NCBI RefSeq assembly: GCF_014201715.1
Contig: NZ_JACHFD010000007.1
Span: forward strand, 169,032 to 233,031
Origin: Haloferula luteola
GTDB taxonomy: Bacteria > Verrucomicrobiota > Verrucomicrobiia > Verrucomicrobiales > Akkermansiaceae
Reading direction: 5' to 3'
DNA: 64,000 bases
The notes below the pieces were generated by a model. The model did no database searches, was not told where the DNA came from, and was given only the letters and a program-made list of their open reading frames with translations. Each line of letters begins with the position of its first letter. The stretch's first letter is position 1. The position numbers and the translations under genes are program-made. Shown here piece after piece: positions 43,364-59,597 of the stretch.

Positions 43364-44224
43364 ATGACTCGACCCGGCCTCATTCTCAAACTCCGCTGCC
43401 CCGATCAACCTGGGATCGTGGCAAAAATCTCCGGCTATGTGGCGGGCTATGCGGCGAACCTCATCGAGTTTGCCCAGTTTACCGACAAGATGAGCGGGCG
43501 CTTCTTTGCCCGATTGGAGATCGAGACCGGTGGCCTCGAAGTCGAGGTCGAGGATTTCATCGATGGCTTCGGCACCCTTGGCAGGGCCCTCAAGGCGGAG
43601 TGGCACTTTCGGCGTCTCCCCTACAAGATGCGCACTGCCGTGTTGGTGACCAAAACCGACCACTGCCTCAACGAGGTCCTGTGGCGGACGCGGCTCGGGG
43701 AATTGCCGATTGAGATCACCTCAGTGGTCGGCAACCGCGACGATTGCCGGGTTCCTGCGGAGCAGGCTGGGCTGCCCTTTCACCGGGTCGAGATGGATGG
43801 CTCTCAGAAAGGCGAGGGCTTCGAGCGCATTCGCTCCATTCTCCGCGACGAAGCCGTGGAATTGGTGGTGCTTGCGCGCTTCATGCAGATCCTTCCCAAT
43901 GATTTCTGCCGGGAATTCGAAGGCCGGGTGATCAACATCCACCACAGCTTCCTGCCGGCCTTCATCGGAGCAAATCCCTACAAACAAGCCTACGAACGGG
44001 GTGTCAAACTCATCGGGGCAACCTGCCACTACGTCACGGCTGACCTGGATGCGGGACCGATCATTGAGCAGCAAGTTGAGCGCGTTCAGCATTTCCATAC
44101 GCCTCAGGACCTCGTCCGTCTTGGGCGCGACTGTGAGCGGGCAGCTCTTGCGCGGGGAATTCGTTACCACGTTCATGACCGCACCATCATTGATGGGCAC
44201 CGTGCCATTGTTTTTCCTGATTGA
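43364..44224 (+). CDS. purU: Formyltetrahydrofolate deformylase
   Basis: The 286-residue protein starts with an ACT domain (ILKLRCPDQPGIVAKISGYVA). The formyltransferase fold follows: RTAVLVTKTDHCLNEVLWR, VVGNRDDCRVPAEQAGLPF, LARFMQILPNDFC, INIHHSFLPAFIGANPYKQAYERG with the catalytic His, and GATCHYVTADLDAGPII with Asp. It hydrolyses 10-formyl-THF to formate and THF, balancing the one-carbon pool. ATG 43364 starts directly before the ACT domain. tRNA-Ser follows 73 bases after the stop. Confidence 0.96.
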   Translation: MTRPGLILKLRCPDQPGIVAKISGYVAGYAANLIEFAQFTDKMSGRFFARLEIETGGLEVEVEDFIDGFGTLGRALKAEWHFRRLPYKMRTAVLVTKTDHCLNEVLWRTRLGELPIEITSVVGNRDDCRVPAEQAGLPFHRVEMDGSQKGEGFERIRSILRDEAVELVVLARFMQILPNDFCREFEGRVINIHHSFLPAFIGANPYKQAYERGVKLIGATCHYVTADLDAGPIIEQQVERVQHFHTPQDLVRLGRDCERAALARGIRYHVHDRTIIDGHRAIVFPD

Positions 44225-44297
44225 TCCAATTTCGCTGAACGAGAGCTTTACAAGGGGAATTGGATTGCTACAAACCGCCCGCCGCCTCGCGGCCCAA

Positions 44298-44389
44298 GGA
44301 GAGATGGCTGAGCCCGGTTTAAGGCACACGACTCGAAATCGTGCGTAGGGTTAAACCTACCGTGGGTTCGAATCCCACTCTCTCCGCCA
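44298..44389 (+). tRNA. tRNA-Ser(CGA)
   Basis: The 92-nt gene includes the encoded CCA. The acceptor stem GGAGAGA pairs with TCTCTCC. The anticodon stem CACGA/TCGTG encloses the loop CTCGAAA, so the anticodon is CGA, reading UCG (Ser). The long variable arm (CGTAGGGTTAAACCTACC) is that of a class II tRNA, and the T loop is GGTTCGAATCC. Its last 8 bases are part of the recombination core that starts the accessory region, so the tRNA stays intact after integration. Confidence 0.97.
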
Positions 44390-44391
44390 TG
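44382..44391 (+). other. Attachment-site core 1 (tRNA-Ser 3' end)
   Basis: CTCCGCCATG comprises the last 8 bases of tRNA-Ser plus TG. The same 10 bases recur at 54824-54833 and 63800-63809, each at a boundary of the accessory region. The 3' end of a tRNA is the classical target of tyrosine recombinases. Confidence 0.7.
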
Positions 44392-44426
44392 ACCCCATCC
44401 CTGCTCGCAGGGATGGGGTCATGGCG
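44385..44426. repeat. 42-bp near-perfect palindrome overlapping the tRNA 3' end
   Basis: Two 20-bp arms (CGCCATGACCCCATCCCTGC and its complement) with a 2-nt loop TC start inside the tRNA CCA. GTTTCT-like bases follow, so it can terminate tRNA transcription. Its position on the att core also suggests a role in recombination through a cruciform. The copy at 63803-63844 has loop GA. Confidence 0.85.
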
Positions 44427-44487
44427 TTTCTGGGAGGTGGCAGTCCCTCGCGGAGCGCAGTGCAGGAGGGTTTGAAAACGGAAAGCT

Positions 44488-44611
44488 GAACGGATCGGCG
44501 ACGGATGCCCGCGCGCCAAACGAGCCCATCTGGTTTGGTGTGAAGAGCGCCGCCGACAAGGGCAATCCCTCCCGGTTCACCATCCAGCCACGTGGATTCT
44601 CGCGCTTCTAG
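44488..44611 (+). pseudogene. Possible gene-tail remnant
   Basis: One frame ends at TAG 44611 and reads APNEPIWFGVKSAADKG then PSRFTIQPRGFSRF. This looks like a real protein C-terminus, but the frame runs back into the repeat without a start codon. I do not recognise the family. It may be the end of a gene cut at the left edge of unit A. Confidence 0.3.
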
Positions 44612-44754
44612 GGTTCCTCCGGTAGGCCGGCCGGCTCAACATTGCGGCGAACAAGGCGGTTTGTTCTAGGAAGTTCGGATCTCCAGTCGATACCCGATGG
44701 GCTGGTGCTCATTCGTGTGAATTTCTTGAACAGGCCGGGTGTGAAAGGATTGTG
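44612..44754. other. Interval without a gene, left edge of unit A
   Basis: I see nothing that can be supported here. Together with the remnant and repeat to the left, 44392-44754 holds no intact gene. Confidence 0.4.
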
Positions 44755-45295
44755 ATGGCTCTATTGAATCAGGTCCAACTCAAGGTCGAGACCGCCGACG
44801 GCGAGCGGCTCATGAACGGCGAGCTTGTCACCGTTAAAGCGGGTATAGGCGGATGTCAGCATCCGGTTGGATGACGGACGCATCCTCCCACCGGATTTCC
44901 GGCAGTTCGTGCGTGGCTACGCCGTCACCTCCTACGCCTCCCATGGGAAGACGGTGGATTATGTCCTGTTCTCGGATTCCTCCATCAAGGCCGCGACCCA
45001 TGCGCGGCAATGGTATGTGACCATTTCACGCGGCCGCCGCGGCGTGAAGGTCTTCACCACGGACAAGAAGCAGTTACGGGAGAACGTCACCCGCTCCGGC
45101 CAGAACGAGCTGGCGCTCGATCTGGTGCGCGGCAACGCGGAATCCGTCATCGCCGCCCGCCGCAAGCGGCAATTTTTAGGCCAAGGCACGCTGCAAGCGT
45201 TGGCGGAGGAGTTCGCCCGAGGGATTCGAGCATTCACGGGCTTCCGCGCGCGGGCCATGCACCGGAAACAAATCACCCCATCCATCAAGCCATGA
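44755..45295 (+). pseudogene. C-terminal remnant of a MobF/TraA-type relaxase-helicase, frameshifted
   Basis: The first part (from ATG 44755) reads LKVETADGERLMNGELVTVKAG and then runs to a stop in frame. A second frame, shifted by one base near 44850, continues as RLDDGRILPPDFRQFV, RGYAVTSYASHGKTVDYVLFSD and QWYVTISRGRRGVKVFTTDK, to TGA 45295. These are helicase motif V-VI blocks at the end of MobF conjugative relaxases. The nicking domain and most of the helicase are absent, so this is a decayed fragment showing that unit A descends from a mobilisable or conjugative element. It overlaps the next gene as ATGA. Confidence 0.75.
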
Positions 45296-45684
45296 TCAAA
45301 TCATCAGACACAAATGAATCGGACCCGGCGGAACGCTCGGGGGCACGCCCCGGCAAATGCTGGCACCGCGAGGAAGGAACGCAGACAATCCGGGTAATCA
45401 CGGAGGACAAGGGAAAATTCGTGTTCCCGTATTTCTACTTCGTTCGCGGCCATCTGGAGGACACCGACGACGGGAAAGAACTGCCCACCCTGCGTTTCCC
45501 ATCCGACACCGTGGAAATCCGGGGCAAGCGGCTGGAGCCGCTGGAGAAAGCCTTGGACGATCTTTCGTTGGTATGGGTCCGCGTGCTTCCCTCCCGCTAC
45601 GCGCCTCTGGCTTCGGAAGGCTCCCCCGTGGTGACGGAAATTGTAGTTTGTCCCACGAAAGAAACGTCGACCGCTGAACCCTGA
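45292..45684 (+). CDS. Conserved protein following the relaxase remnant
   Basis: ATG 45292 overlaps the relaxase stop (ATGA), so the two were once co-translated. The 130-residue soluble protein contains KGKFVFPYFYFVRGHLED, TLRFPSDTVEIRGKRLEPLEKALDDLS and VLPSRYAPLASEGSPVVTEIVV. I recognise no domain. Its coupling with the relaxase suggests an accessory gene of the former plasmid or conjugative element. It appears intact. Confidence 0.6.
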   Translation: MIKSSDTNESDPAERSGARPGKCWHREEGTQTIRVITEDKGKFVFPYFYFVRGHLEDTDDGKELPTLRFPSDTVEIRGKRLEPLEKALDDLSLVWVRVLPSRYAPLASEGSPVVTEIVVCPTKETSTAEP

Positions 45685-46300
45685 AGGTCGATGGGGCAGG
45701 CCGGACTTTTGGACTAGGCCGATAATGTCCCGGCTGCAGGAGACTCGTGCTTGATGCGACTGGCTCATCGGAAGTAAACGAGAGAATGTCAGTTCTAGGA
45801 AACATCCTGCTTTACGATAATTTCGGTACCGCGCAGCTACCGGCCGTGACTACTGGATCTCCCCATCGCGGTTCCATTCTTTGGTCACGATTTCAGAAAC
45901 CTCGTAGGAAGACAGCCCTTGGAAAACCGGACTTAACAATAGTCACTTCCGAGCCTTTACCAACGTCACCGACTTCAGGGACAGCCTCGTCCAGTCGAGT
46001 TGAAGAAGTGGACAGACGCGCCCGGAACCTGTTCTACTGCACTACACCCTAGTCGGATCGGCGACATTTGGGGGAATTTTTCTCAGATGCACGACCCGCA
46101 CAGCGGAATCCATCGCCCAGAGCCACTTGAACGGAACTGATCTCAACAAACTGACTTCCACTAAGATCCTTAAGCACAAACAATTCGATTTATTCACTTG
46201 ATAACGTTTATCATGAAACAGGCCGGGACCAATTTCTAGGTTTCCATGTTCCTCAACAAAGCTAGAGAATCATCGATAGATCTTGCACACCTAATTCATC
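45685..46300. other. 616-bp leader before the primase-RT-nitrilase gene
   Basis: I find no convincing gene here. A 101-residue frame at 45747-46052 has no recognisable features. The base composition becomes AT-richer toward the start codon, and an inverted repeat lies at 46199-46213. Several RT-based defence genes carry a non-coding RNA in this position, so a structured RNA is possible, but I could not fold the region. Confidence 0.4.
46199..46213. promoter_or_regulatory. Inverted repeat upstream of the primase-RT gene
   Basis: TGATAA-CGT-TTATCA (6-bp arms, 3-bp spacer) lies 87 bases before the ATG at 46301 in AT-rich sequence, a likely operator or promoter element. The downstream winged-helix gene is a candidate regulator. 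A similar 15-bp inverted repeat lies upstream of the trypsin-PLD gene. Confidence 0.4.
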
Positions 46301-49300
46301 ATGCCAGCCAAACGCAATTCACCGTCCGGTTCAGATAATAGTAGCACTCGCAATGATGCGATCAACAAGCTGGCAGCTGAGGCGAATCTCTCGGACGTGG
46401 CGGAATGGTTAGACTTGCGAGTAGTGGGACGTGGAACCCGATCGCCGAAAACTCTATGTCCGTATCATGAAGATCAAAGGCCATCGATGTACCTCTATCC
46501 CGCAAGTGGTAGCGGGCGTCCTCAGTTTCATTGTTTCAGCTGCGGGGCTCACGGGGATGTTTTTGATCTGATCAAGCGCCAGAAAAACATAGATTTCCGA
46601 GGTGCGCTCCAATGGCTTGCAGACTGCTACCGTGTCACCCTTCCCAGCAGCCAATCAACGACTCGCAAAGAGCGTATTACTCCTCGATCACGCGGCCTTG
46701 AGATTGGATTATCTTTATATCGCCGCCAAACAACAGAGGAAAAATCTGCGCTTCGGACATGGGCTTCGGCGCGCAGAATGAAGATCGGCTTCCTCCAATC
46801 CGCTGACGTGTTCGCTGTTTGCCCCCCGAAGATTTCCAAGAGTCTTGCCGTGGCCGATAGAGAACAATTCGATTCGCTCGATGCTGCGGGATTGATCTTG
46901 CGAGAATCGATAGCCCGTCGTGGAGAAACTGTCCCGCTACCCGTGGAAATGGGCCCACGGGATTTCTACAATTCTCCGCGTATCCTGTTCACCATCCATG
47001 ATGATCGAGGCAAGGTCGCCGGTTTTGCGGGGCGCTCGATTGGTAAAGAACTTCCAAAGTATCTCTTTTCACCTGGGTTTCCTCGGGGAAGCACCCTCTA
47101 CCGCTTCCACAAAGTAAGGGCGGCGCGCCCAGCCCGTCGATCTAAGGAATCCGAAACGACTGTCCATATCTTTGTTGTTGAAGGCTTGATGGACTCACTC
47201 CGTTTAGAGGCCCTCGGACTCCACGCTGTCGCCCTTCTTGGAAGCCAAATCACTGCCGAGCAAGTGGCTTTGCTCACGGAATACGCGCGCGATCTTGATC
47301 GTGACGACCTTCAACTTGCTATCCACCTCCTCCTCGATTCCGACGAGGCTGGGAGGCGCGGAACAGTTAGCTCCACAATAAAGCTTCTAGCGGCCAGCGT
47401 GGAAGCTCCGGGAATGCTGCTGGACGTACTGACGCCAAGTAAGCCTCACACTGTGAACGAGGCGCAGGCACATGATCCAGATGAGTGGTTCCGTGAAGTT
47501 AACGACTTTGATACGGCACACGCACTACTCAGCACATGGTGTGAGTCGCCAATGAAAATTCTGTTGGCTTGGTCGTTGGAGGTGGAACCGGTGAACCTAG
47601 ACTCGACCTGGGGAAAGCTTCCCGACGCCCAACGGATACAGGCGTTTCGCGATATAGAACGGCGTCTAGACCGCGCTCGCTGGCTTGAAATTCTTGATCG
47701 AGTCCCTGCATTTGAATGTCATCTTCCAGGATCGCCCAACGCTGAATCATTGTGGGAACAACCCCTGCGTAGATTCTTGAGCGCCTCCCGGGGTAGAAGT
47801 ATGATTCTTGCCGCGTCGGCAAAGACTGTGCCAAAAGATGACAATGGCCGACTCATCCGTGCTCTCCAAATCGCGGAGGCAAGCACACAGAGGCGAGAAT
47901 TTCCCGTCGATGAGGGAAGCTGGGACAGGCTTCAGGCCGCTCTCGACGCTACTATCCCATATCTCCGCGAGTTGCTGTCCGTCGCCAACGACAGCGGAAA
48001 AGTCGATGCCGACGATATGATTTCAGTATTGGTGCCGAAGGGGGAGAATAAATTTCGACTAAAGGCTTTACCGAGCCCGGAAATTTTAACGATGCAGCAA
48101 TACGTTCTCAATGAGCTGTTACGTGAATATGCAGATTGCCCCCGCTTCCGGAGCTTCATCCCGGGGGTTCGCTTTTCGACCAGCAGCGGAACCCGTCGTT
48201 TGGAAACGACAGGAGCGGATCGCTTGGTCCCCGTCGGTGGTGAAACCGTAAGCTTTGCTTACACGCTCGACATGGATGTCATCGAGCATCGGGCACCTCC
48301 ACGGCGCACCGGGATGTTCCGATCTTACTTCGAGTGCTGGCGTGATTTTATCTCCTACATCGATACGCGGGTGGCCGCATTCCCACCCGGTAAGTTTCAC
48401 GTTGCTAGACTCGACGTGCGTAGCTTTTACGACACCGTTACCCGACCAGTGGTGAATTCTGTGCTGCTCCCCGCAGTCACGGATGCCTTGGCGGAGCTAG
48501 CTGACAGTACAGAGGAAAATAATGCGGAGGCGTGCGCTAAGCTGTTCCTGCCCAGCATCAAGGAGTCGGCGAAGCGAGCTGGAGCGATGGTTGATTGGCT
48601 TTGTGACCAGAGTTTTGGCTACAAGTTTGAGAACCCAGGCTCGATTGAGCCTGAGGAACAACCCCACGGCTTGCCACAAGGCCCAGACCTGTCGGCATAT
48701 TTGGCTAATATTTCGCTGTTTCCACTTGATCGCGCACTAAGCGAATTGGTCGCTAAGTTCGACCGTCAGGCTAGTGAAGAACAGGGTGAGTCGACCCGTG
48801 AAGGACAGGTTTCCTCAGTACGGGGGGCTGTTTATGCACGTTACGTGGATGACATGGTGATCATCGCTCGGTCTGGACAAGATCTCGCACGGCTACGAAC
48901 TGCCATTGAGCAGCAGCTTGCCTTGGTTGGCATGGAGTTGAGTCCAAAAACGGAACCTCTGCCAGTCATGGATGAAGCTAAAGTTCGGGAGTGGCTAACT
49001 GATAGGCGTGGGGCCGGGCTCGGGGTTTCCGGTCCATTCGAAGGACCGCCGGGCAATGCACCGCTCTCCCTCCTTGAGCCACTTGCCGATGCCGGTGAAA
49101 CCGACAGAAGTGATTCGCTGCGGATACTCCATGATCCGCGCCTTGATGATCCCGATACCAAACCCGAAGAACTGGAAAGTGCAGTGGAGGTAATTCTCTC
49201 TGCCCCTGAGTCAGACTTGCGGCATGGTGACAAGGCAGGTGCCGCGCGTCTTTTGTGGCGTTCCGTAATTCAGGAAGGATATAAATCCGCCCTTTACGCA

Positions 49301-52300
49301 TCGGATGCTGCAGAGGCGTTCATTAACGGATGGCCCCGTAAGACCCTGACGGTATCCGATCTCCTTGCATGGCTGGACGGTGTCGAGCGCCTTTTAATTT
49401 CCCGTCCGGACCGTAATCCGACCTTTTCCGAACAGAAACATCAAACACTCCGCGCCATACGGGAAGGTATGGCCGCGCTAGTTCACGCGGGACTTTGCGA
49501 GATATTGATCGGCCGCGTGATTCCAGATGGAGAGCCGTCTCGTTTCGAGCACATGCTTGATTTCAAGAAGCTTGTGATCCGCCGTGCCGCAACATTGGTT
49601 CAACGACCAATATTACTATCACCGATCACGATCTTGGCGGGTGAGTCACGCGCGAAGACTCGGTTGCTCATTTCGTTGGCGGAAGCTCAAGGACAACCCG
49701 GCCTCATGGACCGAGCCGAGTGGAGGACGGGCAATACTGCTCTTGGCATTTTATTCCATGAGTCGGTCGCTCGCCTAAGAATCGCAAATTCCCAGGAGCC
49801 GAATAGTCTCGATCCCCTCATGCCCGTTAGCCAATCGATGGCTACATGGCGGCAGCGAGGTAGGACGACTCACTCATTAGAAAATATATTGAATTTTTGG
49901 ATGCCCGACGCGCCGTACATTGATGATCCGGCAACCGCTGAATTAGCTCTTAGTTCTCTCATAAATCTTGCACCGAAACGTGCAGTGGACCTGATCAGCA
50001 GCCGGCCTGTGTTGACGAGATTCGCTCTTAATGGCTCTAACGGATCAGAAATTCGACTGATTCCGACACCGCCCGGACTTGATGTGCCAGGGTTGCTTGG
50101 CCTGCGTGACGAAGGCGCTACCGTGGTGCGCGCGGACTTTCGTGAAGAAGACCATCGGCAATTTTGTCCTACTCAGCTTTCATGGACTGAAAACGGTGGC
50201 GGGGAAGCCGGTCAATGGAAACGACTAACTGGGTCACTCTCCCCATATCAGTATCTCCCTCCTGCCGAAAGGAGTGAAGCAAATCCACTGCTCACTCGCT
50301 GGTTGGCCAAGGCATTCCGAAGTCTTGTCGCAGTTGCGGATCAGGACGACCAAACGCAATTGTGTCCACCGACTGCATCAAACTTACTCGGCCCAATGAT
50401 CGGAGCGGATAACTCCGAGAGTAAATGGGGGGTGCTTGGCTTTTGTGTACCCGTCGCCAAAGTAAGTGCGCAGGCTTTTCTTCGACAGGGTGACGGTGGC
50501 TTAGTGCTTGAACCGGTGCTTGAGCTTCACGACCATCTCTGGCGAGTCGGTACAGCGCTCGCGGATTGGCTGGGACGTGCTCCGAGTTCACGCCAACTTG
50601 CTACGCAGCGTCTTGCCGCACCGGCGTTGGTGCACGAAGAGGGTGAGGATTGGGCGCGCGAGGCGATGCTTCGCTTCAGCCTCTGCCGCCTGCGTGGGAA
50701 GTCGTTACCCGCTCGGCCACTTAGGATTTCGCCACAGACAGGTTTGCCAGTGACTGTCGAGCGAGTGCTCAAAAGGCTGGAAAATTTCCCATCGGACCAA
50801 GAAGAATTTACTGGCAACCGCGGCGTGGCACATTTGCTTGCTACACTTGCCGAAGGTCGCGCCATTCAAACCCGAATCGATGCACGAATCGATCCTGAAA
50901 TAGCTGGAGGAGCCACATCGTTGCTTGCAGAAATGGCTCGCGGACAATTCCGATCTGATGAGGAACTTGCGCATCATCTCCCATCATCTGGGACGCTACT
51001 TGCAGTGTGTGCCCCTAGACGGAGACCGGCACGGGCACTATTCGCGCTTTCTAATAGGATTTCGGATCTAGCGGCGTTGGATCCGATGCGCGACGATGAT
51101 CCTACACTCGGAGCTCTCGCCAGCGGCACAAGACTACTATCAATAGAATTGCAACTTCGTAGCCAAGCTTTGGAGCTCTGGTCGCTCCTCGACGTCGCGG
51201 CCCAGTTGAAATTTCAAGAATCACCGCCAAGCCTCGCTGATTGGAATCTCGACTCCACAGCGTTACTTCATCTCGAACAACCATCTACGTTGCACGGAGC
51301 GAGGGCTCCCACGGATTGGAGGAATGTTCGCGAGCTTTTTCAAAAGCTTCATCTCGCCACTAACGAAGGTCAACGCGTTGACTGGGGCGCTCTTGCTGGA
51401 TTCACCCCCTTAGGCTGGACTGTGGTGCTGGGTGCCTTGACCGGCGCGCTCTCAGGTGATTGGCGTGGTGGCCTAATCAGTGATGAGAAACTTGGAGCCG
51501 AAGTTAGACCGAAACTTCAAAGACTCGCTGGGGGATTGGCTCTCACAGCGGTCGACAGCGATGACATACCATGGGGCGGATTTGAGAAGGTGATCGCCGC
51601 TTGGAACTCCACATTCTTGGGCGAAGCTTTTGTCACTCTGGACCAGCTTGACACCGCAACTGGCTTGCGCGTTGAGACGCACAAAAGCTCTCGCTTTTAT
51701 CTCGAAGCTAGCCGGCGGCGGCCCACGGAAGTGCAGGCATCCGACGGCCGCCGAATGTTACCAGGATGGGCAATTACTTGGGCTAAAGCGTACGACGAGA
51801 GCCGCGGTGGAATTGAAAGAGTTGCTACATCGAGCGGTGAAGATCGAGTCGTTTTCCGGTGGAGTGAAACATGGCGAGGGGACCAACTTATAGGCATTGG
51901 CGTGGTGCAACCAGCCATGGTAGCACTTGCAGGAAGCTCCTTCGGAACAGTGCCGTCCCCGAGCGAGAATGAGACTCCGATAGCTGCCTCTAAACTGCTG
52001 GAAACAGATGTTCATACACCACAACCAATCAATGATGAAATCACTGTAGAACCAGCGCCGACGGACACTCCTTCCCAGGTCGCTCCTGTTGCGGTCGCTC
52101 CTGTTGCGGTCGCTCCTGTTGCGGTCGCTCCTGTTGCGGTCGCTCCTGTTGCGGTCGCTCCTCACCCATCCGCCGAATGCAGTCCACTGTCCAACCGTGA
52201 GTCAGGTAAGACTGAGGAAGATATTTTAGCGACGTATATCGAGTTGGAGAAAATGCAGGATGCGTCATGGCGCTCTCGCGGAGAGAAATCGCCAAGTTTT

Positions 52301-53818
52301 GTGCGAGTAGCTCTTTTCCAATGGGAGGTAGATGAAACCTATCGCCATCCCGGTTTCGATTTGTGCAACGGGTCAGTCCACGAGTTCAAACCCAAGAAAC
52401 CCGAGACTTGGACAAAGCATTCCTATGGACAAAGTTGTGCGGAGAGCCGGCGGAGGGCCTTGCTCAAAGCGGCGCTGAAAGCATGCAATCACTTCAATGT
52501 CGACGTTCTGCTTTTACCAGAGTATTCAGTGCGCCCCGAAACTGTGGAGTGGCTCTCGATGCAAGCACCGGCACTCGCTCCGAAGACTTCGGTTTGGGCC
52601 GGGACATATCGCCTCCCTCCAGGGATGCAGAAACCGACTGATTCACGTGAATGGAGTGCGATACACGAAGTAGTCCTTTCCGATCCAGCCGGGAAACGAA
52701 TTTCCCGCCTCAAGAGATACCCAGCTGCTGCTGCAAACGAGGTCTTCCACCCCGGAGGTGATGAAATGGATGCTCTGATAGAGCAAAAACTGGGTGATGC
52801 AAAATCACATATTTTTGAGCTGATTTGCTCGGAGGTTTTTCTTGTCACCTTTCCAGCAAATCTTTTTCCGCTGGCCCGATTGCGTCGTGATTTACTACGA
52901 AAATTTGGAAGCAACGTGGGAGGTAAAGGAGTAGATGATATGATAGAAAAGGATGTCATGACAGACATTAAGAAGTTCGCCGTCTCGACAGCCATCAGTG
53001 AAAATCTGGGAACACGGCGCACGATCCTTCTCGTGCCCGCGATGACGAGCCGCACCGCGGATTATTCCGTTCTTGGCCAAGCTGCATTCCTTTCTTCCGG
53101 CCTTACTACCGTGTTCTGCAACGCGGTATGCGGCCAATATGGTCATGGCCAAAGTTGCTTTGTTGGTCATAATGGATGGTTGGATGAAAAACCGTCTACA
53201 GGTCTTCCCTCAACTTCCCCGTATCATGGCCCAGAGCCAGGGATCTTCCATTTGGATCACGAGAATCGGGGCCGCCTTGGTAAAAACGAGCAAGCGTTGG
53301 TCATTGCAGACATTGATCCGATCTACGGAGCAGAGGGCAAGCCTCGCCCTCAGACGCTTCTCAAACCGCTCCAGCTTGTTGCTCACTTGCCTGTTATCGA
53401 AACATTGCTTCCAAAGTTCGACCCTTCACCGACCGCATGTCGCTGTAGGAGATATGAAAGATCTATCAGAGAAGTCGGCGAGTTCATGCCCGGTTTACAG
53501 AAGGTCTTGAAGTCAGGAATCGACGCCAACTGGAAGAACACGAGCGAAGACATCAACCCGGGCGTTTTGGAATCCGCCTTAGATGCTCTCGCGAAATGTG
53601 CAGGCCTTCCCTTTGGCACGAAAGAGTCCAATCGAGGATGGTTGACACGTCGGAAATCAGCTTACCTCGCTAATCATATGTCTGATCCCCAGCCTTGGCC
53701 ACCTCCCGCTGCCCTTGATTGGTTGTGGGTTGATTCAAAGTCCGAGAGCGATGGATTACCTGAAATTGAAACTCCTCCATATGCCGCCCCGCCCGGCGGT
53801 GAAATGCGGGTCGGATAG
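46301..53818 (+). CDS. 2505-residue fusion: DnaG-type primase, reverse transcriptase, unknown middle, nitrilase
   Basis: The domains run in this order. A CHC2 zinc finger has Cys53, His56, Cys78 and Cys81. A DnaG core has RILFTIHDDRGKVAGFAGRS (from residue 227) and PKYLFSPG. A TOPRIM domain has Glu294 (FVVEG) and Asp346/Asp348 (LLLDSDEAG). A reverse transcriptase has motif A LDVRSFYD (Asp705), motif B GLPQGPDLSAYLAN (about 790) and motif C YVDD (848-851). About 1000 residues follow with no recognised motif. PVAVA repeats span about 1927-1954. From about 1998 comes a nitrilase with Glu2074 (LLLPEYS), Lys2138 and Cys2176 (ICSE). All catalytic residues are present. RT-nitrilase proteins are known antiphage factors (DRT1/UG1); the added primase is what stands out. 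Base composition is AT-richer than the flanks, which suggests transfer. Confidence 0.9.
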   Translation: MPAKRNSPSGSDNSSTRNDAINKLAAEANLSDVAEWLDLRVVGRGTRSPKTLCPYHEDQRPSMYLYPASGSGRPQFHCFSCGAHGDVFDLIKRQKNIDFRGALQWLADCYRVTLPSSQSTTRKERITPRSRGLEIGLSLYRRQTTEEKSALRTWASARRMKIGFLQSADVFAVCPPKISKSLAVADREQFDSLDAAGLILRESIARRGETVPLPVEMGPRDFYNSPRILFTIHDDRGKVAGFAGRSIGKELPKYLFSPGFPRGSTLYRFHKVRAARPARRSKESETTVHIFVVEGLMDSLRLEALGLHAVALLGSQITAEQVALLTEYARDLDRDDLQLAIHLLLDSDEAGRRGTVSSTIKLLAASVEAPGMLLDVLTPSKPHTVNEAQAHDPDEWFREVNDFDTAHALLSTWCESPMKILLAWSLEVEPVNLDSTWGKLPDAQRIQAFRDIERRLDRARWLEILDRVPAFECHLPGSPNAESLWEQPLRRFLSASRGRSMILAASAKTVPKDDNGRLIRALQIAEASTQRREFPVDEGSWDRLQAALDATIPYLRELLSVANDSGKVDADDMISVLVPKGENKFRLKALPSPEILTMQQYVLNELLREYADCPRFRSFIPGVRFSTSSGTRRLETTGADRLVPVGGETVSFAYTLDMDVIEHRAPPRRTGMFRSYFECWRDFISYIDTRVAAFPPGKFHVARLDVRSFYDTVTRPVVNSVLLPAVTDALAELADSTEENNAEACAKLFLPSIKESAKRAGAMVDWLCDQSFGYKFENPGSIEPEEQPHGLPQGPDLSAYLANISLFPLDRALSELVAKFDRQASEEQGESTREGQVSSVRGAVYARYVDDMVIIARSGQDLARLRTAIEQQLALVGMELSPKTEPLPVMDEAKVREWLTDRRGAGLGVSGPFEGPPGNAPLSLLEPLADAGETDRSDSLRILHDPRLDDPDTKPEELESAVEVILSAPESDLRHGDKAGAARLLWRSVIQEGYKSALYASDAAEAFINGWPRKTLTVSDLLAWLDGVERLLISRPDRNPTFSEQKHQTLRAIREGMAALVHAGLCEILIGRVIPDGEPSRFEHMLDFKKLVIRRAATLVQRPILLSPITILAGESRAKTRLLISLAEAQGQPGLMDRAEWRTGNTALGILFHESVARLRIANSQEPNSLDPLMPVSQSMATWRQRGRTTHSLENILNFWMPDAPYIDDPATAELALSSLINLAPKRAVDLISSRPVLTRFALNGSNGSEIRLIPTPPGLDVPGLLGLRDEGATVVRADFREEDHRQFCPTQLSWTENGGGEAGQWKRLTGSLSPYQYLPPAERSEANPLLTRWLAKAFRSLVAVADQDDQTQLCPPTASNLLGPMIGADNSESKWGVLGFCVPVAKVSAQAFLRQGDGGLVLEPVLELHDHLWRVGTALADWLGRAPSSRQLATQRLAAPALVHEEGEDWAREAMLRFSLCRLRGKSLPARPLRISPQTGLPVTVERVLKRLENFPSDQEEFTGNRGVAHLLATLAEGRAIQTRIDARIDPEIAGGATSLLAEMARGQFRSDEELAHHLPSSGTLLAVCAPRRRPARALFALSNRISDLAALDPMRDDDPTLGALASGTRLLSIELQLRSQALELWSLLDVAAQLKFQESPPSLADWNLDSTALLHLEQPSTLHGARAPTDWRNVRELFQKLHLATNEGQRVDWGALAGFTPLGWTVVLGALTGALSGDWRGGLISDEKLGAEVRPKLQRLAGGLALTAVDSDDIPWGGFEKVIAAWNSTFLGEAFVTLDQLDTATGLRVETHKSSRFYLEASRRRPTEVQASDGRRMLPGWAITWAKAYDESRGGIERVATSSGEDRVVFRWSETWRGDQLIGIGVVQPAMVALAGSSFGTVPSPSENETPIAASKLLETDVHTPQPINDEITVEPAPTDTPSQVAPVAVAPVAVAPVAVAPVAVAPVAVAPHPSAECSPLSNRESGKTEEDILATYIELEKMQDASWRSRGEKSPSFVRVALFQWEVDETYRHPGFDLCNGSVHEFKPKKPETWTKHSYGQSCAESRRRALLKAALKACNHFNVDVLLLPEYSVRPETVEWLSMQAPALAPKTSVWAGTYRLPPGMQKPTDSREWSAIHEVVLSDPAGKRISRLKRYPAAAANEVFHPGGDEMDALIEQKLGDAKSHIFELICSEVFLVTFPANLFPLARLRRDLLRKFGSNVGGKGVDDMIEKDVMTDIKKFAVSTAISENLGTRRTILLVPAMTSRTADYSVLGQAAFLSSGLTTVFCNAVCGQYGHGQSCFVGHNGWLDEKPSTGLPSTSPYHGPEPGIFHLDHENRGRLGKNEQALVIADIDPIYGAEGKPRPQTLLKPLQLVAHLPVIETLLPKFDPSPTACRCRRYERSIREVGEFMPGLQKVLKSGIDANWKNTSEDINPGVLESALDALAKCAGLPFGTKESNRGWLTRRKSAYLANHMSDPQPWPPPAALDWLWVDSKSESDGLPEIETPPYAAPPGGEMRVG
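52079..52162 (+). repeat. 15-bp tandem repeat encoding PVAVA units
   Basis: The unit GTCGCTCCTGTTGCG repeats five times perfectly, followed by a partial copy. Each unit adds five residues in frame, forming a flexible Pro/Ala/Val linker before the nitrilase domain. Copy number can change by slippage without breaking the frame. Confidence 0.95.
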
Positions 53819-53884
53819 AGGGAAGTAGGGGCTTTGCACCCGTAAGGGAACGGGAATGTGCGTGCTTTATGGGAAACTCCCGGA

Positions 53885-54316
53885 ATGGCACGAATGGCTC
53901 CACACGAATACGAAGTCTTGAGCCGGGAAGAACGGCTTCGGCGGATCGGTGCGCTGTTCTACAAAGCCGTGGTGATTTCGCTGGCGCGTAAACAAGCTCT
54001 TGCCGAGGAGGCTGGCGGCGATGCTCCAGATGGAACGGCTGTGCTGGCAGCGGGTTTATTGTCGGAGGAGGACTTGGCCCTTCTCCGGCGATATGCCGGG
54101 CTGGGAGAGATTGCCCCACGCGATGCGACGGAATTTTGGGGCGTGTGCCGAACGACGGCTTACCGGCGATTGTTGAGCTTGGAACAGAGAGGTTGGATTG
54201 TGAGGCATGGGGCCACTACGGCCACCCGCTACACGTTCACCAAGCAAGCTCGCGCCCTTCTGGAACGAGATAAACAAGCCAAACAAGACCGCGATGACTC
54301 GCGGGCCAGCATGTGA
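53885..54316 (+). CDS. Winged-helix (MarR-like) DNA-binding protein
   Basis: ATG 53885 (MARMAPHEYEVLSREE) gives 143 residues; GTG 53858, preceded by AAGGGA, is an alternative. The C-terminal half reads FWGVCRTTAYRRLLSLEQRGWIVRHG, then TRYTFTKQARALLERD, a winged helix with its wing. It starts 66 bases after the giant gene on the same strand and could regulate it; an autoregulated operon is inference. The N-terminal helix (LRRIGALFYKAVVISLARKQ) may dimerise. No domain suggests another role. Confidence 0.7.
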   Translation: MARMAPHEYEVLSREERLRRIGALFYKAVVISLARKQALAEEAGGDAPDGTAVLAAGLLSEEDLALLRRYAGLGEIAPRDATEFWGVCRTTAYRRLLSLEQRGWIVRHGATTATRYTFTKQARALLERDKQAKQDRDDSRASM

Positions 54317-54359
54317 TGCCAGCCCGCAAGCACATTTGCGCAACAAGATCGTGCCGATT

Positions 54360-54773
54360 TCAACCGGCGCGTCTTTCCGCTCCGGCCTTCATCCCCTCGA
54401 AAACCTCGCTCTGCCGGGTAGAGGGCAGCTTGGCAACGGACATCAGCCGCCGGATGGCAAAGGATTTGATTAAGACGGGCGAAGTCAGGGAAGCTAGGTA
54501 TTGCTGTGCGTCCTCGGGCAACCGGAGCAAGCTGAACATTTGCGTGATGCGAGCCTTGCTAAGGCCTTCTGCTTCACCGATTTGCACCTTCGTCAGCCCC
54601 TTGTCGCCGTTCAAGCGTTCCTGCCATTCGAGCACCTTGCAAATCGGATGTCGCGTGGAAGACTCACGGCCTTCGCCGTTCGTCTGGCAGTCGCCGCCGA
54701 AGCCGCTTGACCGCCATGTAAAGCGGAATGGCTCCGCGACGAACGGGGCGAGCCGATGCTGAGGCAAAGGCAT
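54360..54773 (-). CDS. Small HTH protein at the right end of unit A (ParB-HTH-like)
   Basis: ATG 54773 (MPLPQHRLAPFVAEPF) gives 137 residues, but the frame and similarity to its paralogue continue upstream toward the att core (RTSF), so the start is uncertain. The core is VLEWQERLNGDKGLTKVQIG, LSKARITQMFSLLRLPEDAQQYL, the helix-turn-helix seen in ParB/KorB-like proteins. The gene at 63330-63755 is its paralogue, with the same core and the same place next to an att core. Its position suits an excisionase or element regulator. Confidence 0.65.
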   Translation of the reverse strand: MPLPQHRLAPFVAEPFRFTWRSSGFGGDCQTNGEGRESSTRHPICKVLEWQERLNGDKGLTKVQIGEAEGLSKARITQMFSLLRLPEDAQQYLASLTSPVLIKSFAIRRLMSVAKLPSTRQSEVFEGMKAGAERRAG

Positions 54774-54818
54774 CCCCACAATCAGAGGAATCCCGAAACT
54801 GGTTCGCAGATTAGACTC

Positions 54819-54833
54819 GCCCGCTCCGCCATG
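54819..54833 (+). other. Attachment-site core 2 between units A and B
   Basis: GCCCGCTCCGCCATG is identical to 63795-63809 and contains the 10-bp core shared with the tRNA-Ser 3' end. It separates the HTH gene of unit A from the first gene of unit B. Confidence 0.65.
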
Positions 54834-54851
54834 TGCTCCCAAACGGGAGCA
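54834..54851. repeat. Hairpin directly after att core 2
   Basis: TGCTCCC-AAAC-GGGAGCA (7-bp stem, 4-nt loop) abuts the core. A hairpin also follows cores 1 and 3 but with different sequence, so the shape rather than the sequence is conserved. Confidence 0.7.
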
Positions 54852-54897
54852 GTATTTGCTGGCGATTATTCCTGCATCAAGTGGGAAAGAACGCCTG

Positions 54898-55815
54898 TCA
54901 GAGGCGCGCGAGCAAGCCGGTCAGATCCTTACTGTGCCCGGCTTGTGCACCGCACTGGCGGATCCTCCCAAATTCATACGGGTAGGTGTCGAAGGGCGCT
55001 TCGCGGTGGATCAGGTGAAGCTGCATGCCGAGCTGGCAGGGCAAGGAGAGATCGAGCTCCCAGACATCGCCGCAGACGAGCGTCTTCTCGAAGGCGGAGA
55101 GGTCATTGCCAAGCGCGCGGCAAAGCGCCTCGTAGTAGCGACCACGACGCAGGTAGGTCGGCCGCGCGAAGTAGGGGCAGGCACTCTCGGAGACGGGCAC
55201 CTCGTCAAAGCGCTCCCGCAGGTCCCCGGGCAAGTCGCCTTCAGTTCCCCAGTCCGGCTCCTTGATCAGGAATTTGCCTGCATCGCTGAAAACGTCGACG
55301 TTTGCCCGGGTGTTGGGATCGCCCTCCAGGAGCTTGTCGAGGCGGCCGGTCACATATTCCGAGCTGGAGTTGGAGACGAAGTGGATCTTGATGCCCTTGT
55401 CCGTGATTGTCTTCAGGACCTGCAGCGTTTCGTTGCGCCACGGTGCAGAAGCCTTCTTATACACGTCGCTGTGCAAGGCCACGGTGGCGGGCAGCTTGAT
55501 CTTCCGCTGGCGGCAGATGAGCTTTGCGGTCTCGTCCGCAAAGATGTAGGGATCCGAGGCGATGGGCGCAGAGGGCGTGGTGCCGACACTCCAGCCTTCC
55601 GCCGGGGATCTGCTGCGGACGGCATCCTCGGCGGCGGCCCACTCCTCCTTCGTCACCGCGCAGAGATCCGCGCCGGAGACTTGGTACGCCGGATCCAGCT
55701 TCTGGACCTGGGTGGAGAAGTTCTCCCGGTAGGCCTCGGAGAATGCCTCGTAGACCACCGGGATCTGCGTGCAGGTGCCGTCGAAGTCGAAGATGATGTG
55801 TTTTATGGGTTTCAT
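54898..55815 (-). CDS. HAD-superfamily hydrolase
   Basis: ATG 55815 (MKPIKHIIFDFDGT) places HAD motif I (DFDGT) at the start and gives 305 residues; ATG 55845, 3 bases after the DyP stop, would add 10. Motif II is HFVSNSSSEY and motif IV is VCGDVWELDLSL. A large cap lies between I and II (residues about 20-150). HAD enzymes are mostly phosphatases; the substrate is unknown. It is the last gene of a minus-strand run after the GRE and DyP genes and probably shares their transcript. Confidence 0.8.
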   Translation of the reverse strand: MKPIKHIIFDFDGTCTQIPVVYEAFSEAYRENFSTQVQKLDPAYQVSGADLCAVTKEEWAAAEDAVRSRSPAEGWSVGTTPSAPIASDPYIFADETAKLICRQRKIKLPATVALHSDVYKKASAPWRNETLQVLKTITDKGIKIHFVSNSSSEYVTGRLDKLLEGDPNTRANVDVFSDAGKFLIKEPDWGTEGDLPGDLRERFDEVPVSESACPYFARPTYLRRGRYYEALCRALGNDLSAFEKTLVCGDVWELDLSLPCQLGMQLHLIHREAPFDTYPYEFGRIRQCGAQAGHSKDLTGLLARL

Positions 55816-55848
55816 GCGTGGAAGGGGGAAAAGGATTCGGTCCATCGA

Positions 55849-57060
55849 TCAGTCGAAGAGCCCGGCCCCGACGAACGAGCCCTGCGCTGCATTCGGCGGG
55901 CAGAAGTAGTAGCCGCCGGACAGGGCCTTCGCGACTTTGGACTTGAACAACGGATCCACGCCGTAGTCGGTCGTGGGAAAGTTCGGCGCGCTCTGCCACA
56001 TCTGGACAGCCCAGTCGCCCTGCTTCTCCAGGGAGCGCATGTAGGAGAAAAACAAGCGCCCCGCGACGACCGGCGTGTCATTTCCGATGAAGATGTAGCC
56101 GCGCCTCAGGAAGCGGCGCTCTTCATCGCGGACCCCGAGGATGTCCTGGTGATCGCCGCGGCGCGGCTGGACCTTCAGGATGTGGCCCTTTCCCGGAATG
56201 ATATCGCCGTTCTCCACGTTGCGTCCGATGATGCCCGATTGCTCCTCCGGGGTCATCGACTCGAAGAGCGGGCGATCAAGCTGGATCTCCTTCCACAGCA
56301 GGTAGCTGCCGTCCACGCACCAGGCGGGCTCCATGTCCTCCGGCCTGATGAAGACCAGCTTGTCGATGTCTCCATTCACGTTCGTCAGATTCGCCGCACC
56401 ATCGGCGACACGCAGGTGGTCGCGGTAGTCCAGCCGCTGGTAGCCGGAGACGGATCGCTTGTAGGTCAGCCGCTTGTCCGGCTTTTTCGTCTTCGGGTCG
56501 TGCCACCGGCCGTCATGCAGCTCCATTAGCAGCGAGTCATTCACCTGGTCCGCATCACTGGCGATGATAACGACGAGATCGGAGATGAATTCCGAGGGCT
56601 CGAAATCATCGACCTCCGTCTTCGGCATTTCGCGCAGCCACTTCGGCTTTTTGTGGCGGAGACCGAAGCGGTCGTCTCCGTGTGCGGAAAGGAACAGGCC
56701 GGTGCCAAAGCCGATGGTGACGGTCACCCGGCGCGAGTCGGGCCGGGGGATCCACAGGTCCATCTCGGACTCGGGCGGCTTCTCTGCCATCTCCTTCCGG
56801 GCGTATTTGCTGAGATCCTCCAGCAGCGTCTTCAGGTCGTCCCGTGTGCAGACGTTTACATCGAAGAAGATGGCGGTGATCCAGTCCTGCGTATCCACGC
56901 GGCCGGCGAAGTCCTTCACGTAGCCCGCGCGCTTTTCCTCCGGCACATAGCATGGGGTCTCCACGGGCCACTGCGGATCCGCGATGCCGGGCTGGCGGGA
57001 TCCATTCAGGTCAGGATAAGGGCGCTTCGGGCGCTCCTCGCATTTCGGAGAGTTGCTCAT
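55849..57060 (-). CDS. DyP-type haem peroxidase
   Basis: ATG 57060 overlaps the stop of the upstream GRE gene (ATGA), so it is translationally coupled; 403 residues. The signatures are VTIGFGTGLF, then the DGAANL block (Asp220) in place of the usual GxxDG, VDGSYLLWKEIQLD, the proximal His304 in GDHQDIL, RRGYIFIGND, and GRLFFSYM with FFCPPN-like YFCPPN. There is no Tat signal, so the protein is cytoplasmic. DyP peroxidases oxidise dyes, lignin-type phenols or unknown substrates with peroxide. Coupling to a GRE homologue is unusual. Confidence 0.85.
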   Translation of the reverse strand: MSNSPKCEERPKRPYPDLNGSRQPGIADPQWPVETPCYVPEEKRAGYVKDFAGRVDTQDWITAIFFDVNVCTRDDLKTLLEDLSKYARKEMAEKPPESEMDLWIPRPDSRRVTVTIGFGTGLFLSAHGDDRFGLRHKKPKWLREMPKTEVDDFEPSEFISDLVVIIASDADQVNDSLLMELHDGRWHDPKTKKPDKRLTYKRSVSGYQRLDYRDHLRVADGAANLTNVNGDIDKLVFIRPEDMEPAWCVDGSYLLWKEIQLDRPLFESMTPEEQSGIIGRNVENGDIIPGKGHILKVQPRRGDHQDILGVRDEERRFLRRGYIFIGNDTPVVAGRLFFSYMRSLEKQGDWAVQMWQSAPNFPTTDYGVDPLFKSKVAKALSGGYYFCPPNAAQGSFVGAGLFD

Positions 57061-59597
57061 GGCGTGTAAAGGGGACGGCGGCGATGCTGGTTCTGGTGAT
57101 CCGGGAAGAGCGTGACGAAGAACTCCGACCACCCGCCCATGCGGACGCGCACGAGATTGTACTTCTCCGGTGAGGTCTGGGCTTCGAGCAGAGTCTTTGG
57201 ATTGGCCACGGTGAAGGTGGCGACGGAGCCTTTCCCTCCCTGGGCAAATTCTCCTAACAGGGCCGCCAGTTTATCCGGTGGGAAGTCCTCAGGCAGGTTG
57301 TAGTCCACGGCTCCGCCATCGCCCAGGCGCTCCATGCACTCGTCCGAGTAGCTCGCGAAGCCCTTCGCGAGCGCGGCGGTGCGCCGGTGCAGCATGGGGT
57401 CCTCTTCCGAATGAAGGGGGGCCGGCGACAGGTCGGAGGCGATCGGCTGGCGGGACTTGCGACCATCCGCCGATGCCCCCAGCCAGGAGCCGGAAAAGAC
57501 GTACTGCTCGAAGGTGCCGACCCCGGGCGCGAAGATCAGTTGGAAGTCCTTGCCCGGCGAGCTCCACCTTGCGGCCAGGTCCTTCAGCCGCCCGGCATGC
57601 ACCGGGTGCTCCGCCGCATCCCGCACGGCATTGCAGAAGGAGTCGATTAGATACCACGCGATCTTGTCGACCTCGGCATGGCCGTAGCCGAATTTGTCCT
57701 GCTTCTTGCACAGGGCGTGGATCTCCTGGATGCGCTCCGGCGAAACGTAGCGACCGAAGGCGGGCTGCTTCGCGCCGTCCGGCCCCAGCAGGGCGTCGCC
57801 CCAGTTGGTGGTGAGACAGGTCAGGAGTTCCTCCAGGGTGAATTTCTTCTCCTCGAAGACGAGCTTGCGGATCACGTGCAGCGAGTCCGCAGCAGTGCTG
57901 ATGCTGGTGAAGAGCGGCGAGAAGATGTGGTAGTCGGTGCCGCCGGCCGTGAGATCCCTCCCGCTTTCCAGGCAGCCGCCGATGAAGGCGGACAGCAGCG
58001 GGGAAGGGCAGACAGCTTCCTTGTTGCCATAGTTCAGCGTGAGGTTCTTCACGTAGCGGTGGCAGCCCAGCTCCAGGTGCTTTTCCAGGATGCGCTTGAA
58101 TTCATCCCAATCCTTGATGTCGGAGGCGGCGGTGGAGCGCCACGACTCCTTCGAGCCACGGAGATTTATCGGTCCGGTGCCAGCGATGCCGGCGCCGCGG
58201 TTGAGCGTCTTCTCGATCAGATCCGTGGCGGAGACGAAGCCGAAGCTGAACTCCGACTTCCCGGCCACCATCGTTTCATAGCAGCCATCGCACGCGTAGT
58301 CCCGCGCATCGGCCAGGGTGATGACGTTGTTGGAGTTCTCGGTCAGCGCCTTCACGATGCACTCGTCGCTGAGCAGCACCGGATGGGCACCGCCGCTGAG
58401 GAGTGCCGCGGCGGCCAGATCCAGCACGTCCTTCGGCGTCTGGCCGTTCACCCGCAGGTCCAGTGTGGGGCTATTCAGCGGCAGCCGCCGCGAGCTGTTC
58501 AGGCAGAGTCTCGTGACCGGATTGCAGGCGTCCTGCGGATCGCCGTCTTTCGGAAGCAGGCCGCCGATGGTGATCTGCTGCATCCACTGGTTCAGCAGGC
58601 CGCCCTGGTCGTAGTTCGAGGAACCCCAGAAGCCGGTCAGCACGCCATCGCACGCCGTGAAGCGATTCTCTGCATGGCGGTAGTTCAGGATGGCGGGCTC
58701 ATCCAGCTTGATCCAGAAGCCATCCAGGATCTCCTGCGCCTGATCCAGCGTGAGCTGCTTCGCCTCCAGCTCCTTTTCCAAGATCGGCCACAGGATCTGG
58801 TCCAGCCGGCCGATGGGCACGATCTCCACCGTCCAGTGGAAGGCACAGTGAAGGAGGTGGATCGCCTGCACCGCATCATGGAAGGACTCCGCGGGAAACT
58901 CCGGCACCCGCTCCAGGCGGGCAGCGGACTCCACGAGCGATGGCCGCCGTGCGTCGTCCGCGGGCAGGGTGTCCACCATCTTGCGGATGCCATGGGCATA
59001 GGCGTGCGCGAATTCCACGACGCCCTCCAGCGACTCGATCACGGACAGGTAGAAGTCGCGCTCGCGCGCACCCTCACTCGCCGCCGCCTTCGCCTTGCAA
59101 TCATCGATCATCTTCCGCAGGCCCACCCGCACCGTCCGTCCATGGTCCGGCGCGATGTGTCCCATCGGCGACATCTCGTTCAGGAAATCCAGCATGCCGG
59201 CCAGCTCCTCGTCTTCCTTCAGGTAGCGGACGAATTCCTTTCCCTGGCCGACGGAGAATGGCGGCATCGTGCCGAAAATGAGATCATCCGGATCCAGCTC
59301 GAAGCTGCCCGCCGAGGCAGCGACATCATCGCGGACGATGATCTGGAGCATGCGGCGCACGGCCTTGCCTTTGCGGACCATGACGGATTCGCCGCTGAGC
59401 GCCTTGCGCTCGGCGGGATCCCCGGTGGGGCCCGGGATCAGATGACCCACCTGTTCCTCCGTCAGCCAGCGGGGCTTCTCCCGCCAGCGCTGGAAGAGAC
59501 GGCGCAAGAGGCGGCAGATGCGCGGCGAGGGCAGATCCGGATCGCCCGGTTTCAGGTGCTCCAGATGGCGCCAGTAATCGACATCGTTGTGAATCAT
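57057..59597 (-). CDS. Glycyl radical enzyme homologue (PFL-like) with altered Gly motif
   Basis: ATG 59597 (MIHNDVDYWRHLEHLKPGD) gives 846 residues, full length for a pyruvate formate-lyase/GRE. The thiyl Cys is Cys439 in YACDGCYETMV. The C-terminal glycyl loop reads VRVRMGGWSEFFVTLFPDHQ with Gly822; most GREs have RVxGY, so Tyr is replaced by Trp. GREs need a radical-SAM activase and anoxia; no activase is encoded in the window. The fold is secure but the reaction is unknown; a GRE-derived enzyme without radical chemistry is possible. It lies upstream of and overlaps the DyP gene. Confidence 0.82.
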   Translation of the reverse strand: MIHNDVDYWRHLEHLKPGDPDLPSPRICRLLRRLFQRWREKPRWLTEEQVGHLIPGPTGDPAERKALSGESVMVRKGKAVRRMLQIIVRDDVAASAGSFELDPDDLIFGTMPPFSVGQGKEFVRYLKEDEELAGMLDFLNEMSPMGHIAPDHGRTVRVGLRKMIDDCKAKAAASEGARERDFYLSVIESLEGVVEFAHAYAHGIRKMVDTLPADDARRPSLVESAARLERVPEFPAESFHDAVQAIHLLHCAFHWTVEIVPIGRLDQILWPILEKELEAKQLTLDQAQEILDGFWIKLDEPAILNYRHAENRFTACDGVLTGFWGSSNYDQGGLLNQWMQQITIGGLLPKDGDPQDACNPVTRLCLNSSRRLPLNSPTLDLRVNGQTPKDVLDLAAAALLSGGAHPVLLSDECIVKALTENSNNVITLADARDYACDGCYETMVAGKSEFSFGFVSATDLIEKTLNRGAGIAGTGPINLRGSKESWRSTAASDIKDWDEFKRILEKHLELGCHRYVKNLTLNYGNKEAVCPSPLLSAFIGGCLESGRDLTAGGTDYHIFSPLFTSISTAADSLHVIRKLVFEEKKFTLEELLTCLTTNWGDALLGPDGAKQPAFGRYVSPERIQEIHALCKKQDKFGYGHAEVDKIAWYLIDSFCNAVRDAAEHPVHAGRLKDLAARWSSPGKDFQLIFAPGVGTFEQYVFSGSWLGASADGRKSRQPIASDLSPAPLHSEEDPMLHRRTAALAKGFASYSDECMERLGDGGAVDYNLPEDFPPDKLAALLGEFAQGGKGSVATFTVANPKTLLEAQTSPEKYNLVRVRMGGWSEFFVTLFPDHQNQHRRRPLYTP

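Follow-up and report, generated by a model that had tools for sequence, protein, structure and literature searches.

We identified a single gene on the + strand at positions 46301–53818 of the window, the whole stretch of 64,000 nucleotides from Haloferula luteola analysed here, that encodes a 2,505-residue protein of the UG29 group, in which a DnaG primase, a reverse transcriptase (RT) and a predicted nitrilase are joined in one chain. We propose, at a probability of about one half, that this single protein uses its own S910 as the starting point of DNA synthesis and couples the resulting DNA to the nitrilase as an effector. The proposal is based primarily on a conserved hydroxyl residue in the loop that follows the RT, and on the way in which two related defence proteins are reported to start DNA synthesis.

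The preliminary description of this DNA had read the gene as one uninterrupted frame of 2,505 codons, which the open frame confirmed. Following the chain from the N terminus, the protein is composed of the DnaG primase, the RT, a helical region, a small beta-rich domain, a linker and the nitrilase, and all the coordinates given for these parts are on the + strand. The CHC2 zinc ribbon is of the DnaG type (residues 18–117; 46352–46651), matched Pfam PF01807 with an E-value of 2.4e-14 and carries the conserved ligands C53, H56, C78 and C81. It is followed by the DnaG RNA-polymerase core (residues 128–497; 46682–47791), which contains the TOPRIM acids E294, D346 and D348. The RT spans residues 514–940 (47840–49120) and includes the GLPQG (790–794) and YVDD (848–851) motifs. 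The helical region (residues 955–1790; 49163–51670) was delimited from the DSSP assignments of two predicted models, which leave out residues 1021–1339, and from an alignment with Abi-P2 that extends to residue 1020; it is perhaps an alpha-repeat domain as in other UG/Abi RTs. The beta-rich domain (residues 1789–1884; 51665–51952) was assigned from the DSSP of model m037f399cc4da. In the linker before the nitrilase, which is predicted to be disordered (pLDDT <50), Tandem Repeats Finder located a 15-bp tandem repeat (52078–52162; 5.7 perfect copies, 100% matches) that encodes VAPVA-type repeats; because the repeat unit is in frame, a change in copy number would keep the reading frame of the UG29 gene. 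The C-terminal part is predicted to adopt the nitrilase (carbon-nitrogen hydrolase) fold over residues 1998–2351 (52292–53353), with E2074, K2138, E2147 and C2176 as the putative catalytic residues.

We assigned this last part to the nitrilase superfamily on the basis of its predicted fold together with the conserved Glu-Lys-(Glu)-Cys residues. The Pfam CN_hydrolase profile gave no match at E ≤ 1 in the UG29 protein, such weak profile similarity being compatible with membership. Class 3 of the UG/Abi RTs is defined in the accessible text of PMC13275509 by an RT fused to a nitrilase or to a phosphohydrolase, and the UG29 protein combines an RT with a nitrilase domain. The combination of DnaG-type primase, RT and nitrilase that had been proposed for this protein is thus supported by the Pfam CHC2 match, the conserved residues and the predicted nitrilase fold.

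The same architecture had been thought undescribed. This part of the preliminary description does not hold: PADLOC-DB 2.0.0 (2023) lists the whole design as RT_UG29 (PDLC03767), and the search for proteins with the same domain order that had been suggested returned many database homologues, which, if they carry a name at all, are mostly called ‘CHC2 zinc finger domain-containing protein’, ‘toprim domain-containing protein’ or ‘DNA primase catalytic core’. The RT_UG29 model matched the window protein in one stretch over residues 18–2495 (E 0; 1,591 bits; model positions 3–2278 of 2,280), and it matched four other members over their length, namely P0024 (1,590 bits), P0030 (1,881 bits), the Polaromonas plasmid protein (2,734 bits) and P0083 (2,249 bits). 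It also gave matches in 11 of 14 control genomes, presumably to ordinary DnaG, and so only full-length matches count. By sequence, the window protein is clearly a member of UG29, a group already listed as a candidate phage defence.

Two protein searches yielded 61 and 69 proteins, or 108 distinct ones (P0001–P0108). After P0107 and P0108 were left out as not belonging to UG29, 106 UG29 proteins were retained, 92 of them at least 2,250 residues long; the 14 shorter ones entered the analysis of position 910 only. Each search scored only the 7,990 or so candidates with the most words in common, and the count of 106 is therefore a minimum. Identity among the relatives falls to 25–30%, and the members named come from Prosthecobacter, Gluconacetobacter, Hoeflea, Devosia, Shinella, Sphingomonas, Ramlibacter, Stenotrophomonas and Vibrio. 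Two of the shorter proteins, P0061 (1,477 residues) and P0069 (2,053 residues), lie on megabase contigs, so that truncation at a contig end is improbable for them; they could represent decayed copies or annotation errors. We found no publication on the function of UG29 in a literature search that did not reach the study naming the UG groups, reportedly that of Mestre and others in 2022. The accessible text of a further study describes nitrilase fusions in UG1 and UG5 and a primase fusion in UG10, and places dnaG among the domains found near RT genes (PMC8934634).

The catalytic residues of all three enzymes are highly conserved. Residues E294, D346, D348, D705, Y848, V849, D850, D851, E2074, E2147 and C2176 are invariant in the 92 long UG29 proteins, R245 is likewise present in 92 of 92, and K2138 is kept in 91. 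Among the zinc ligands, C53 is found in 88 of these proteins (4 gaps), H56 in 85 (3 Asn, 4 gaps) and C78 and C81 in 90 each (2 gaps). Because the TOPRIM, RT and nitrilase residues are nearly invariant, all three enzymes appear to have been kept, their activities being suggested by this conservation. The primase part aligned with the DnaG of Aquifex (2au3) at a profile E-value of 2.4e-48, and its GF-x-R, PKY, EGxxD, DxDxAGR and DPD stretches are in register with solved DnaG chains. It combines the CHC2 zinc ligands, the DNAG_N motifs and the TOPRIM Glu and DxD by which DnaG primases are recognised. Based on the conserved active site and on the motifs in register, the module looks competent rather than vestigial. 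The host genome also contains a separate 649-residue frame with a DnaG-type match.

The residue that we consider a candidate priming site, S910 (codon at 49028–49030), is located in a loop that links the RT to the helical region and is modelled with a pLDDT below 50 over residues 906–920. This position is occupied by Ser in 87 and Tyr in five of the 92 long proteins, and by Ser in 100 and Tyr in six of all 106, with no other residue present; P0106 is one of those in which the alignment places Tyr. Its surroundings vary, as 20 of the 29 other positions within 895–924 hold 8 to 15 residue types. Out of 1,933 well-occupied columns, position 910 alone combines at least 90% Ser plus Tyr with at least three of each. 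From the YVDD box to residue 1400, no other Ser, Thr, Tyr or His is conserved at a level of 80% or more. In a tree of residues 290–985 from the 106 proteins, the change from Ser to Tyr has a Fitch count of 3 and the Tyr proteins occupy three separate positions, the smallest mixed clades around them having supports of 0.99, a moderate 0.86 and a weak 0.21; the tree of the 92 long proteins alone gives two changes.

The restriction of position 910 to these two residues suggests that a hydroxyl matters there. AbiA primes DNA synthesis on tyrosines of an unseen loop that connects the RT domain to the helical one, according to the accessible text of PMC11077055, and DRT1 is described in that of PMC13275509 as priming on S402, in a stretch after the RT that is absent from the cryo-EM map. 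By analogy with these two proteins, we predict on balance that UG29 builds DNA on residue 910 by protein-primed synthesis. The preference for Ser and Tyr could also have a structural or catalytic cause unrelated to priming: column 2013 in the C-terminal part is the other all-hydroxyl column that includes Tyr (S 52, T 35, Y 5), and R903 in the same loop is also well kept (R 81, K 10, N 1). The place of priming is not fixed across families, since AbiK is reported to prime in its N-terminal fingers (PMC11077055) and DRT9 in its C-terminal tail (PMC12483538), both in the accessible text of these sources; S402 of DRT1 is said to lack conservation among the other DRTs of class 3 (PMC13275509, accessible text).

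Among 387 genomes of the phylum, full-length UG29 was found in the window's own genome only; some match was present in 372 of the 387, the best one elsewhere reaching 1e-26 and, among the matches listed, lying in the primase part. When only the last 1,166 residues were searched, the window's own genome was the sole match among 145 in the host family, and the genome of an outside locus (L001) the sole match among 297 in its phylum. The accessory distribution in the host family also counts in favour of our proposal. Two of 72,556 plasmid records carry UG29, and three other UG29 queries gave the same two. A viral origin was considered and rejected: viral contigs contain at least 347 relatives, the best 80 of which all match in the primase part, and no relative came up when the C-terminal alignment was used instead. 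In the phage collection, cyanophage AS-1 was the one record with a match, a short one in the RT.

The two plasmid copies are located on a Sphingomonas aerolata plasmid (NZ_CP098765.1, locus L106), where the match reaches the end of the record and no gene is listed, and on the Polaromonas naphthalenivorans plasmid pPNAP05 (NC_008761.1, locus L107; WP_011798575.1). We scanned ten neighbours at the three outside loci with PADLOC models (five at L001, three at L106 and two at L107), of which four matched. Both plasmid copies have genes matching defence models within 4 kb. On the Sphingomonas plasmid, Lamassu LmuB (680 bits) and LmuA (547 bits) are found approximately 3.4 to 7.2 kb upstream of UG29, and a weak LmuA-like gene (22 bits) lies directly upstream. 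On pPNAP05, a NACHT gene approximately 4 kb upstream gave partial matches to DUF626_VIII (70 bits), PDC-M54A (52 bits) and Avs4 (50 bits). No PADLOC model was matched by any of the five L001 neighbours or by the endonuclease adjacent to the Polaromonas copy. The listing of UG29 as a candidate defence and the proximity of both plasmid copies to Lamassu and NACHT genes support the earlier suggestion that the protein is likely antiphage.

In the window, the gene is located in an accessory region whose left edge is a tRNA-Ser(CGA) (44298–44389 (+); ARAGORN). Over the 20 kb downstream that were compared in three same-genus loci, DNA homology to the window ends at this tRNA or within 40 bp of it. 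The 62 window ORFs that start beyond the tRNA had no match in these loci, and the positive control purU matched in all three; purU adjoins this tRNA in four of 16 same-genus loci scanned. The GC content is 0.53–0.56 over 46–54 kb versus 0.59–0.63 for several kb on either side. The 3′ end of the tRNA-Ser has no second copy in the window that would form an attachment-site repeat, and so an integrated element was not delimited. The right edge of the region was likewise not found; even the gene at 55849–57132 is present in the window's own genome only among 18 same-genus genomes. Between the tRNA and the UG29 gene lie a weakly helicase-like fragment at 44867–45295 (+) (Pfam UvrD_C_2, E 0.11, below the cut-off) and a small ORF at 45292–45684 (+), which are perhaps remains of a mobile element. 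A small winged-helix-like ORF at 53858–54316 (+), 40 bp downstream of the UG29 gene, has a weak PF25213 match below the cut-off; it was rejected as a companion gene, given that tblastn at 1e-4 found no match at L001, L106 or L107. As for a noncoding RNA partner, a scan of 44000–56000 with Rfam at gathering scores identified only the tRNA, a result that applies to listed RNA types.

We hypothesise that the RT would start on the hydroxyl of S910, or of Tyr in some relatives, and would thereby produce protein-bound DNA without an outside primer. By analogy with DRT7, the DnaG module would then act on the tethered single strand, most likely by making RNA primers for a second strand; DRT7 itself is presented, per preprints cited in the accessible text of PMC13213688 and PMC13174585, as an RT-primase that makes duplex-like DNA. 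The DNA-bearing oligomer would hold the nitrilase poised, as reported for DRT1, in which RT and nitrilase mutants both lose defence and the nitrilase cysteine is needed (PMC13275509, accessible text). Phage replication would release the nitrilase, an essential metabolite would be hit, and the infected cell would die before phage release.

The preliminary description had assigned the parts differently: DnaG would make a short RNA primer, the RT would extend it into cDNA and the nitrilase would act as effector, with no protein priming. We retain the nitrilase as the probable effector and depart from the primer step, because residue 910 points to protein priming. The presence of a complete primase on the RT's own chain, with its active site conserved, does speak for such a primer; on that account, however, a position restricted to Ser and Tyr has no evident role. 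DnaG copies DNA templates, so that before a first strand exists there would be nothing for it to prime on. Together with the priming of AbiA and DRT1 on a residue in a comparable loop (PMC11077055 and PMC13275509, accessible text of both), this makes RNA priming of the RT unlikely in our view. It also seems improbable that the module serves as a sensor of phage single-stranded DNA or replication machinery, or as a TOPRIM nuclease, and in this way controls the RT or the nitrilase. Some nucleases do have a TOPRIM fold. The DRT1 trigger is said to need the T4 single-stranded DNA helicase Dda (PMC13275509, accessible text), yet the zinc ligands, EGxxD, DxD, DPD and R245 are all kept in UG29, which is more than bare binding or a nuclease needs.

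Finally, UG29 might have no part in defence and instead serve a mobile element in its replication or maintenance, like plasmid primases. The two homologues on plasmids, and the position of the window copy after a tRNA-Ser with a weakly helicase-like fragment nearby, fit this explanation. We regard it as very unlikely all the same, because plasmid records with UG29 are so few, phage records match no further than the one short RT stretch, and the plasmid copies are located near Lamassu and NACHT genes; moreover, we know of no place for a nitrilase in replication.

A further family of DnaG–RT fusions, lacking the UG29 helical and nitrilase domains, was noticed alongside UG29. P0107, P0109 and P0110 (1,888–1,891 residues) and P0111 (1,556 residues) combine a DnaG module with a UG-type RT. 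The UG29 helical and nitrilase profiles score at most 3 bits on these four proteins, and the UG29 RT profile scores 63–70 bits. For the three that were scanned with PADLOC (P0107, P0109 and P0111), no model matched at full length: RT_UG29 ranked first with 178–203 bits, its best stretch covering only the first 360–560 residues, and the best models for the RT part were RT, UG21, UG19 and UG10_large. P0107 has no Pfam match beyond residue 765. In a tree of 128 DnaG modules (25 from UG29, four from the P0107 family and 99 from other genomes and viral contigs), UG29 formed one clade (0.97) and the P0107 family another (1.0); these were not grouped together, and basal supports were moderate. Based on the separate clades, the fusion of DnaG with a UG/Abi RT may have happened more than once; such recurrence, if true, would support a working partnership between the two. 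All four proteins carry a Tyr (KKYDLG) approximately 50 residues C-terminal to the YVDD box, around where S910 lies in UG29, which we treat only as a lead. A fuller scheme can be put forward tentatively, and we consider it possible though doubtful: the RT would be primed on its own Ser or Tyr 910, DnaG would start the complement, and the tethered duplex or RNA–DNA hybrid would lock the nitrilase until disturbed by a phage; DnaG would have become coupled to UG/Abi RTs at least twice (in UG29 and in the P0107 family), in parallel to PrimPol in DRT7.

UG29 would thus present in one protein three enzymes that are separately known in defence, namely the RT (Abi/DRT), the primase (DRT7) and the nitrilase (DRT1). 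The family is already listed in PADLOC-DB; of interest here are the design with three enzymes, the priming prediction for position 910 and the possibly recurrent pairing of DnaG with an RT. If the prediction is true, it offers a one-residue test of protein priming for which natural Ser and Tyr versions exist. If the primase makes the second strand, a chromosomal-type primase, beyond PrimPol, would have been turned into an immune DNA-writing device, and the pairing of primase and RT would be a recurrent solution. The substrate of the DRT1 nitrilase is an open question in the accessible text of PMC13275509, and UG29 provides a second, distant nitrilase for finding it.

The relation of the RT to UG/Abi RTs that had been proposed is supported by the PADLOC models, without an exact place being fixed. 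After RT_UG29, the best models for the window protein were Drt1a (37.6 bits), RT_UG10_large (37.0), RT_UG19 (35.8) and Drt3a (35.7), with others close; the runner-up differs among UG29 members (Drt3a, UG10_large, UG35 or Drt1a), and so no single place among the UG/Abi RTs was assigned. The best fold matches of the modelled RT were RTs of the group II-intron type, R2 and DGR RTs, which ranked above the UG/Abi ones; DRT1 and DRT7 structures were absent among the fold matches listed, an uninformative absence given that the structure set ends in April 2026. The Drt1a match is a single stretch over residues 672–873, with nothing beyond the RT. Among the matches listed for the window protein and the members scanned, Drt1a and RT_UG5-nitrilase matched within the RT only, so that no sequence-level kinship with the DRT1 nitrilase was seen. 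A search for Drt1a in 288 genomes of the phylum gave no matches, and no control matched either.

Of the characterised and listed systems, RT_UG29 itself shares with the window protein the model match in one stretch and the catalytic residues of the three parts, with no difference seen in these comparisons. To our knowledge, AbiA, AbiK and Abi-P2 have neither a primase nor a nitrilase, unlike UG29. In contrast to bacterial DnaG, the UG29 primase is fused to an RT and a nitrilase, and a general Pfam scan of the UG29 protein detected no helicase-binding domain of replicative DnaG at E ≤ 1. DRT7 (UG10) resembles UG29 in joining a primase to a UG/Abi RT within a single chain, and UG10 models find their best stretch on UG29 proteins inside the RT. 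The primase of DRT7 is of the PrimPol type, whereas that of UG29 is a DnaG (CHC2-TOPRIM) primase, and UG29 additionally has the C-terminal nitrilase. DRT1 (UG1), like UG29, comprises an RT, a helical region and a C-terminal nitrilase fold in one chain, and in both proteins the RT is followed by a disordered loop bearing a hydroxyl residue (S402 in DRT1; S910 in UG29). Unlike DRT1, UG29 begins with a DnaG primase, is approximately twice as long and contains an extra beta domain and linker.
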